A DNA stretch of 34,667 nucleotides. Origin: Phycisphaerales bacterium. GTDB taxonomy: Bacteria; Planctomycetota; Phycisphaerae; Sedimentisphaerales; Anaerobacaceae. The position numbers and the translations under genes are program-made. The notes beneath the pieces were generated by a model. It was not told where the DNA came from, did not search any database, and saw only the letters and a program-made list of their open reading frames with translations. Below are positions 168 to 11,226 of the stretch, piece after piece (within the stretch, counting starts at the first letter, position 1; every line of letters starts with the position of its first letter). The stretch is from the NCBI GenBank assembly GCA_030602885.1, contig JAUVYV010000034.1, forward strand, positions 1 through 34,667, given 5' to 3'.

Positions 168-418
168 CAAGCTGCCGGAGCCTGTCGAGGGCAGCGCAGA
201 TCCCCGCTTGTCCTCGGGAGATTGCTACTTTGGTCCTGCAGCAGAGGAACTGCTCCTCCAATGGCCCAGCAGCAGGGGACCCAACGTCGAGGGTCGCGCA
301 GACCCCGCACCCATCGTGGTGCCGGGCCCAGTTCAAACCCCCACTGGCCGTTTTCCCCCCGTCTTTGCGAAAAAAGGTGCATGGCCCCCTCCTCCGTGCA
401 AACTTCTACTGCTAAGTG

Positions 419-424
419 TATAAT
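419..424 (+). promoter_or_regulatory. Possible -10 element for ispE
   Basis: A perfect TATAAT lies 12 bases before the ispE ATG at 437. No convincing -35 hexamer is visible 16-18 bases upstream. If used, transcription would begin near 431 and leave a leader of about six bases. That fits the lack of any Shine-Dalgarno sequence before this ATG. It may equally be chance. Confidence 0.25.
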
Positions 425-436
425 AAGATTCAGACC

Positions 437-1339
437 ATGAGTGACAAAGAGCAATTCACATCAACCGATAACGGCCTGCTGGTCCTGGCACCGGCCAAGC
501 TCAATCTGTCCCTGCTCATAGCAGGCAAGCGGCCGGACGGCTTTCATGAGATAGAAACCATAATGGCCAAGGTTGACTACTACGATGAAATTCTCATTGA
601 GCGAGGACAAAAGAAGGGGATTGAACTGGTTTGCAAAGGCCAATACCCCGTTCCGGATGGTGAGGATAATCTCGTATTCAAAGCAGCCACTTTGCTTCTG
701 GAGGAATGTGGGATACAGGCCGACCTGAGATTCACCTTGACAAAGAATATCCCGCCAGGTTCGGGACTGGGCTCGGCAAGCAGTGACGCTGCGGCCGCAC
801 TTCTCGGCGTCAGGCGGTTTCTGAATCTGGCGGTTGCTGACGGCGAGCTTGCCCGGATGGCGGGCGGGCTGGGCGGTGACGTTCCCTTCTTTCTGGGCGG
901 GCCTCTGGCGTTATGCCGGGGCAAAGGCGAAAAAATTGAAAAACTACAGGAAATTTTTGATTTTTCAGCCCTTTTGGTCATGCCGAACGTAAGTGTCTCC
1001 ACACAAAGGGTTTACGCCAACTACAGGCATGAGCCCGCGATTTATTCTAAGTTCTCGGCTGAAATAGGCCGGCTTATCGGAAAAAACAGGATTGATTTAG
1101 TCTCAGGAGTGTGCGCAAATATGCTGCTGCAAAGTTGTTTTGAGATGCATAAAGAGCTTGCTGAGCTGAAGGAAAGAATAGAATCGTTGGGTATCAGACC
1201 GGTGTGTCTGAGCGGTAGTGGTTCGGCAATGTTTTGCATTATTAACAACAACAATGAGGAAGGAGTAAGAAAGAATCGAGGCAAACTTGAGCAGGATTTC
1301 GGCTGCAGGAGCATTATTGTAACGAACAACAGATGGTAA
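437..1339 (+). CDS. ispE: 4-diphosphocytidyl-2-C-methyl-D-erythritol kinase
   Basis: IspE phosphorylates CDP-methylerythritol in the cytoplasmic MEP pathway to isoprenoid precursors. The 300-residue protein has the family's usual length and its motifs in order: the N-terminal APAKLNLSL segment with the catalytic-type Lys near residue 21, the GHMP-kinase ATP loop [15 protein letters not shown] at about 106-120, GGDVPFF with the expected catalytic Asp near 148, and the C-terminal LSGSGSAMF glycine-rich loop near 258-266. The frame is open from an ATG at 416, but 437 gives the better N-terminus; neither start has a clear ribosome-binding site. spoVG follows after 22 bases, so the two are probably co-transcribed. 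ispE close to spoVG is also seen in Bacillus. Confidence 0.95.
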
Positions 1340-1361
1340 ACTATTAGGTGAGGCAAGGAAA

Positions 1362-1802
1362 ATGGAGATCAGCGAAGTCAGAGTCAAACTAATCGAGAAC
1401 AAAGACGACAGGTTGAAGGCCTTTTGTTCGGTGACGATGGACAACGAGTTTGTGGTTCGCGATATAAAAATCATCGAGGGCACCAACGGCTTCTTCGTGG
1501 CTATGCCTTCGAGGAAGATGAGCGACCATTGTGAGAAATGCGGGGGCAAGAACCACCTCCGCGCGAAATTCTGTAACAACTGCGGCGGTTCACTGCCGGA
1601 GGACAGGGCAAAAAAGGATATGAAAGGCAGGATGAAGCTGCACGCCGACATCGCCCATCCGATTAACGCAGAGTGCCGTAAGAAGATACAGGACAAGGTT
1701 ATCGCCGCGTTCACGGAAGAAGTGGAAAAATCGAAACTGCCCGGTTACAAGCCGGTCGATATGGACGAGCCGGACAACGAGGTACCGGAAATCGTCACGT
1801 AA
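1362..1802 (+). CDS. spoVG: SpoVG family protein with inserted zinc ribbon
   Basis: SpoVG proteins are small regulators known in Bacillus, Staphylococcus and Borrelia to bind nucleic acid and to affect septation and expression. Residues 1-52 match the family closely ([24 protein letters not shown]), and the match resumes at about 95 with [18 protein letters not shown]. In ordinary SpoVG these segments are joined by roughly ten residues. Here about 40 residues intervene, with four cysteines at 57, 60, 71 and 74 (CxxC-x10-CxxC), the pattern of a zinc ribbon. An acidic tail ends the 146-residue protein. AAGGA before ATG 1362 serves as ribosome-binding site. It follows ispE directly, so co-expression is likely. 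The family call is firm; the function of the insert is unknown. Confidence 0.9.
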
Positions 1803-10544: not shown

Positions 10545-10729
10545 TTAAGAGCCTATCCTAAAAACCCGCTCTATTACGGCCTGCTGCAAAGCCCGATGCC
10601 TGCGTTGTCGGGGCGAAATCGTCCTCGACGTAGCTTTAGCTACGCCTGCGGCAATTTTGCCCCTGCCGCCTTGGCCTGGGGCTTTTCGCTCGGCCTCATA
10701 ACGAGCCGATTATCAGGATAGGCTCTTAA
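10545..10729. repeat. 185-bp palindromic MITE-like element
   Basis: The ends TTAAGAGCCTATCCT (10545-10559) and AGGATAGGCTCTTAA (10715-10729) are perfect 15-bp inverted repeats. The centre CGTAGCTTTAGCTACG (10629-10644) lies exactly in the middle. Matching blocks between them (such as AAAGCCC/GGGGCTTTT and CGGCCT/AGGCCG) make the whole unit one long imperfect hairpin. It carries no gene. It sits between convergent operons, and its right end supplies the TAA stop of the GspM-like gene. It could also end transcription from both sides. Confidence 0.75.
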
Positions 10730-11226
10730 TAGTAGTAGTTGAACCGCAGGTCCACATCCCAGGAATCGGGCGCACCTTTTTTCTTCTTAAGTGTCACCTT
10801 GGTACACTGCAGGTTCGACCAGCGAAGCTGAATAGTCGAAAGGAATTTGGCAAAGGTCTTTACGTCAACTTCGTCCAGCGATACATTCGCGCTCTGGCTC
10901 TTCTTTCCGCTGGATGTTACGATTGTGCCCGACGAGAGTTTGTATTTGGCCGCCGATATACCGTAGGATTCGGCGGCATTTTGCACGGCCGTGGCGTAGT
11001 CGAACTCTGCAGAGCCGCCCTTCTGTTCGGCATAATCCAAACGCTCTGCATCCATATCAAGAATCTGCCCGATAAGCTCTCTCGCCTGGTCGTACTGTTT
11101 CCTTTCCTTCTTCAGGCTATTTTCGGCATTAGGAAGATACACACCCCTGATCAGCACCGGGCACAGGGCGACAGCAACAGGTACCGCTATGTAATAGAAG
11201 AACGGATTTCTTAATACTTCCTTCAT
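10726..11226 (-). CDS. GspM/PilO-like type II secretion inner-membrane protein
   Basis: The 166-residue protein has a short cytoplasmic start, one membrane helix at about 12-31, a coiled-coil-like stretch at 34-65 (SLKKERKQYDQARELIGQIL) and a ferredoxin-like C-terminal region ending RFNYYY. This is the build of GspM and PilO, which pair with GspL/PilN in the inner-membrane platform. Sequence identity to the family is low, so the call rests on build and position: it is the last gene of the gsp operon, directly after gspL. The start at 11226 has AGGTAG upstream. The stop codon lies inside the palindromic element at 10545-10729, so the original C-terminus may have been changed by its insertion. 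Confidence 0.65.
   Translation of the reverse strand: MKEVLRNPFFYYIAVPVAVALCPVLIRGVYLPNAENSLKKERKQYDQARELIGQILDMDAERLDYAEQKGGSAEFDYATAVQNAAESYGISAAKYKLSSGTIVTSSGKKSQSANVSLDEVDVKTFAKFLSTIQLRWSNLQCTKVTLKKKKGAPDSWDVDLRFNYYY

Follow-up and report, generated by a model that had tools for sequence, protein, structure and literature searches.

A predicted zinc ribbon in the conserved loop insert of planctomycete SpoVG

The SpoVG protein encoded in the window (the whole 34,667-nt stretch of contig JAUVYV010000034.1 of a Phycisphaerales bacterium) carries a 43-residue segment in place of the short loop that joins the two conserved halves of this family. Profile matches and invariant cysteines, and more weakly the fold of a model, support the prediction that the segment is a zinc ribbon. 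The insert, its invariant ligands, its profile matches, its retention throughout the phylum, the purifying selection on it, its basic signature and its position were all computed. The simplest reading of the signature would be an added nucleic-acid contact beside the old one. The finding of the first-pass annotation is real and largely as described there, and the insert itself was already on record.

The open reading frame at 1362-1802 (+) encodes a SpoVG of 146 amino acids (plus stop) and is the sole spoVG copy of the 3.2 Mb genome. The PF04026 profile matched residues 1-118 of the protein with a score of 101.7 bits (curated cut-off 29.6), covering profile positions 1-81 of 82. The NCBIfam equivalog 'septation regulator SpoVG' gave 96.7 bits, below its cut-off of 108, and this match is broken in two because of the insert. 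The missed cut-off concerns the protein name at NCBI and leaves the family homology unaffected. The features of the gene and its upstream neighbour are as follows:

416..1339 (+), ispE-like GHMP kinase gene (PF00288 E 4.9e-15, PF08544 E 3e-06), directly upstream of spoVG with a 22-base gap
1346..1353 (+), AGGTGAGG, candidate ribosome-binding site read from the sequence, 8 bases ahead of the spoVG start
1362..1802 (+), spoVG, 146 aa, with the predicted zinc-ribbon insert (PF04026 E 2.4e-29)
1362..1517 (+), SpoVG N-terminal core, residues 1-52, with VAMPSRK at its end (phmmer to 2ia9_A residues 1-55)
1512..1517 (+), R51-K52, counterpart of the S. aureus SpoVG basic pair K50/R51 (PMC3688583 and alignment to solved SpoVG)
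1518..1646 (+), 43-residue segment (53-95) replacing the 7-residue loop (alignment with Bacillota SpoVG; compare the 32-36 aa insert of Gupta 2012, PMC3444138)
1530..1586 (+), predicted zinc ribbon C57-x2-C60-x10-C71-x2-C74-G75, with K63, N64, R67 and N72 (Pfam zinc-ribbon profiles)
1647..1733 (+), SpoVG C-terminal core (residues 96-124) with DIAHPIN and a helix, modelled at residues 103-124
1734..1799 (+), acidic C-terminal tail of low model confidence (pLDDT 52-65 in the last blocks)

The convergent gene 3′ of spoVG (1956-2324, -) encodes a protein that resembles the anti-sigma factor FlgM (PF04316 E 8e-05, just under the cut-off). A similar gene occurs at the same location in locus L035.

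The last residue of VAMPSRK is 52 and the first of DIAHPIN is 96. The loop of Bacillota SpoVG has 7 residues in the aligned sequences, giving a net gain of 36 residues in the window protein. The cysteines at residues 57, 60, 71 and 74 form the pattern CxxC-x10-CxxC. Thus the first-pass description of two intact SpoVG halves whose joining loop is replaced by such a segment was correct, with 43 residues counted between the halves and PF04026 matched at E 2.4e-29.

The insert was not confined to the window protein, and its cysteines were conserved; the two outcomes that the first-pass annotation had named as refuting its reading, no insert in relatives and variable cysteines, were thus looked for and neither occurred. 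A set of 201 planctomycete inserts, restricted to complete and parsable sequences, was assembled from the loci of the PF04026 search, a follow-up of weaker hits, a GTDB genome scan and fetched stretches. All 201 had the four cysteines, 199 of them with exact CxxC-x10-CxxC spacing; the other two (L140 and L221) had one altered knuckle. No complete planctomycete insert (0/201) had lost a cysteine. Among 56 divergent members only 11 columns were invariant, and the four cysteines were among them. The pN/pS ratio was 0.067 for the ribbon and 0.078 and 0.148 for the two SpoVG core halves, values of which only the relative order is meaningful, as synonymous sites were near saturation. Purifying selection on the ribbon is as strong as on the SpoVG core. 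One locus, L184 (G084:C1:70080-70331), showed an apparent frameshift in the ribbon part of spoVG, which marks either a pseudogene or an assembly error.

The zinc-ribbon profiles DZR and Zn_Ribbon_1 matched 55 and 30 of the 56 divergent members, respectively (E<=0.01). In a whole-genome search, PF13240 scored above its family cut-off within spoVG in at least nine genomes, for example at G050:C1:10747-10812 inside the spoVG match 10633-10980. For the window protein itself, DZR gave E 5e-05 and a score of 23.8, under the cut-off of 27.3. The AlphaFold model of the window SpoVG had a mean pLDDT of 84.6, with 82-86 in the ribbon blocks and 73 in the linker. Foldseek matched the model to the SpoVG structures 2ia9, 2i9x and 2i9z (E 8e-07 to 3e-05, with TM values relative to the target reaching 0.90). 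VIA superposed its core on the SpoVG crystal structures with Z of 11.6-12.7, so in the fold comparison that the first-pass annotation had proposed, the insert leaves the core undisturbed. For the ribbon region alone, similarity to NZF/RanBP2 fingers was weak: Foldseek probabilities reached 0.90, yet at an E of about 3, and VIA gave a Z of about 3. The nearest PDB folds to it came from fingers of Nup153 and the Trabid NZF, in complexes with Ran or ubiquitin. The earlier proposal of a zinc ribbon in the loop is therefore upheld by the profile matches and the invariant cysteines, with weaker backing from the model fold, and zinc binding itself stands as a prediction.

With the solved members of PF04026 (2ia9, 2i9x, 2i9z) the protein shares its two core halves, the basic pair that follows PS, the DIAHPIN motif and the C-terminal helix. 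It differs from them in the 43 residues with the ribbon in place of a 7-residue loop and in a longer acidic tail. The ribbon shares with DZR (PF12773) and Zn_Ribbon_1 (PF13240) the CxxCG-x9-CxxCG knuckles and the placement of N and F/Y. Unlike these, it is single and lies inside another domain, and its loop is basic and acid-free, unlike those of other ribbons of the phylum. Similarity to the RanBP2-type fingers (PF00641; ZRANB2, Nup153, NZF) was seen in the spacing Cys-x2-Cys-x3-Asn-x6-Cys-x2-Cys and in the local fold. The RanBP2-type consensus is Trp-x-Cys-x2-4-Cys-x3-Asn-x6-Cys-x2-Cys (PMC6384913). PF00641 matched 4 of the 56 divergent members, and an aromatic residue (Y/F) at the RanBP2 stacking position was present in just 6/54 SpoVG ribbon representatives. 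None of the 54 had the Trp that lies two positions ahead of the first Cys in that consensus. Membership of the RanBP2 type was rejected on the missing Trp, though spacing and Asn agree.

The position of the ribbon bears on its possible role. DNA binding by S. aureus SpoVG requires K50 and R51, and the helix confers specificity (PMC3688583). Sequence-specific nucleic-acid binding was reported for SpoVG of S. aureus, B. burgdorferi and Listeria (PMC3688583, PMC4959528). The Listeria protein proved an RNA binder in vitro, with weak binding to DNA (PMC4959528), and whether SpoVG is a DNA- or an RNA-binding protein is disputed between these two papers. K50/R51 of S. aureus align with R51/K52 of the window SpoVG, a pair that lies four residues before C57.

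The SpoVG ribbons share an almost acid-free signature, K-N-x-[LVI]-[RK]-[AS], that is missing in other ribbons of the phylum. This was seen on comparing 54 non-redundant SpoVG ribbons with 42 unrelated CxxC-x10-CxxC ribbons of the same phylum; a 75% identity filter was applied and related sequences were then treated as independent, which makes the p-values optimistic. Position 7 was K/R in 52/54 SpoVG ribbons and 4/42 others, position 8 was N in 53/54 and 10/42, position 11 was K/R in 42/54 and 2/42, and position 16 was N/S in 49/54 and 5/42. Position 10 was hydrophobic and near-fixed in the 54 SpoVG ribbons. None of these five positions is a zinc ligand. The loop held 0.09 acidic residues in the SpoVG ribbons versus 1.55 in the others, and the median net charge of the insert was +5. 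The suggestion in the first-pass annotation that the ribbon could change the target of SpoVG is plausible in view of its place beside the essential basic pair and of this basic, acid-free signature.

The PF04026 search found SpoVG in 233 of 392 planctomycete genomes, and the strong matches listed spanned approximately 336-393 nt for a profile of 82 positions. Every one of the 201 complete planctomycete SpoVG sequences of the ispE type had the insert. In Bacillota, SpoVG was found in 144 of 199 sampled genomes, and the matches listed spanned at most approximately 249 nt and are therefore without such an insert. SpoVG matches in annotated phage and plasmid collections spanned approximately 230-300 nt and gave no sign of it. 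Whole-genome sampling covered Planctomycetota and Bacillota; for absence from other phyla, the basis is Gupta 2012 together with the collections given here. An ispE match lay directly upstream of spoVG in 182 of the 194 planctomycete loci with enough flank, and the ispE-spoVG pair is therefore stably inherited. The tree of core residues (81 columns) was mostly unresolved and requires at least two changes of ribbon state, because L289, a viral sequence lacking the insert, is placed inside on a long branch. This tree is compatible with one origin of the insert and with several, and 81 columns are too few to prove a single one.

Approximately 40% of the sampled planctomycete genomes had no SpoVG match, including all those listed from the class of the window outside its order. 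A few planctomycete genomes (L185, L186, L193) encode a second, short and divergent SpoVG-like protein that lacks the insert (pattern TGLLGYITCVLDG...SYPAR...) and occurs besides or in place of the ribboned SpoVG.

Gupta, Bhandari and Naushad (2012) reported that SpoVG of every planctomycete sequenced by that time, and of no other organism, has an insert of 32-36 aa (PMC3444138). The window insert, with its net gain of 36 residues, fits that description and is an insert of the same kind, in a conserved region of the same protein. The authors treat it as a taxonomic marker, a conserved signature indel, and neither 'zinc' nor 'cysteine' is present in their text. The first-pass statement that no SpoVG with this build had been described thus fails for the insert, though its zinc-ribbon character goes unmentioned in that paper. 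No paper on a SpoVG with a zinc ribbon was found in the open-access literature, and within that literature the zinc-ribbon nature of the insert seems undescribed.

Whereas Gupta 2012 confines the insert to the phylum, phage contigs have it here too. The first IMG/VR scan, with a single-protein query, gave no relative, and an alignment-based scan gave 18 loci. Nine IMG/VR contigs (L272-L280), about seven of them distinct, carried a ribboned SpoVG, all with the four cysteines. No ispE was detected upstream of spoVG in any of the nine. The gene order of L277 (18-4432) was terminase large subunit, portal, head morphogenesis and spoVG, and in L280 (392-4456) a terminase large subunit lay upstream of spoVG. 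These two are real phages. We infer planctomycete hosts for both from the SpoVG type alone, and the hosts of L272-L280 as a whole are presumably planctomycetes.

The terminase beside spoVG in L277 (18-1349) weakly matched a Hint domain at residues 28-67 (PF13403, E 7e-07), which may be what is left of an intein. In the related contigs L272 (5412-6170) and L273 (6661-7440), a small protein with a Clp_N domain is encoded a few kb away from spoVG.

We propose that the window protein is the ispE-linked planctomycete SpoVG orthologue, probably a dimeric nucleic-acid-binding regulator. A Zn(Cys)4 ribbon of the DZR/Zn_Ribbon_1 type would sit on a hairpin right after the basic pair that contacts the phosphate backbone in other SpoVGs, and the zinc would most likely just keep the module folded. 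K63, N64, R67, N72 and their neighbours may then form a second basic contact surface beside the SpoVG groove, by which binding to DNA or RNA would be widened or redirected, with one ribbon per subunit. We give this structural module with a second nucleic-acid contact surface about an even chance of being right. The basic signature might serve folding or protein docking, and the fingers that the ribbon alone matches weakly (E about 3) have protein as well as RNA ligands. A more specific version, a two-site RNA regulator whose ribbon recognises a short RNA motif next to the SpoVG groove and which planctomycete phages captured to control host or phage transcripts, is unlikely.

The ribbon may instead serve to dock a protein partner in planctomycetes, such as RNA polymerase, the ribosome or a nuclease, leaving nucleic-acid binding to the core alone. 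Ribbons of the same fold do bind proteins, as Nup153 and the Trabid NZF finger do with Ran or ubiquitin, and a fixed non-ligand signature would suit a protein interface equally well; the signature, however, is basic and nearly acid-free, the module adjoins the known nucleic-acid-binding pair, and the gene context points to no partner, only to ispE. We regard docking as possible, if on the unlikely side. All-Cys zinc ribbons are often structural staples, and the insert takes the place of a loop and leaves the core undisturbed, as would be expected if the ribbon merely stabilised the hairpin or the dimer and its surface had no binding role. Yet positions 7, 8, 10, 11 and 16 are fixed far beyond what the phylum's other ribbons need, and Bacillota SpoVG reaches its fold with no ribbon at all, which makes simple stabilisation rather improbable. 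Four thiols within a nucleic-acid-binding protein could also sense metal or redox state, with nucleic acid let go upon zinc loss or thiol oxidation. We consider this very unlikely, as Zn(Cys)4 ribbons usually bind zinc too tightly for sensing and spoVG is linked to ispE, not to metal genes. Nor was there, among the 201 inserts, a paralogue of ribboned SpoVG that lacked the cysteines or spared zinc; zinc sparing through cysteine-free variants was rejected on this count, and the earlier idea of a metal-responsive SpoVG found no support, all-Cys ribbons being usually structural. Chance pairing of the CxxC motifs is ruled out by their retention in 201/201 inserts. With these inserts coming from independent genomes, and with the purifying selection and the profile matches, the probability that chance or an assembly artefact mimics a module is negligible.

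What is new here is the zinc-ribbon identity of the insert, its position just after the essential basic pair, the ribbon signature and the ribboned SpoVG on phage contigs. Gene regulation in the planctomycete phylum is little known. The lineage marker left unnamed in 2012 becomes a concrete hypothesis, in which a widespread bacterial regulator would have gained a zinc-held nucleic-acid contact early in the phylum. The phage copies of the ribboned SpoVG suggest that it may be important during infection.
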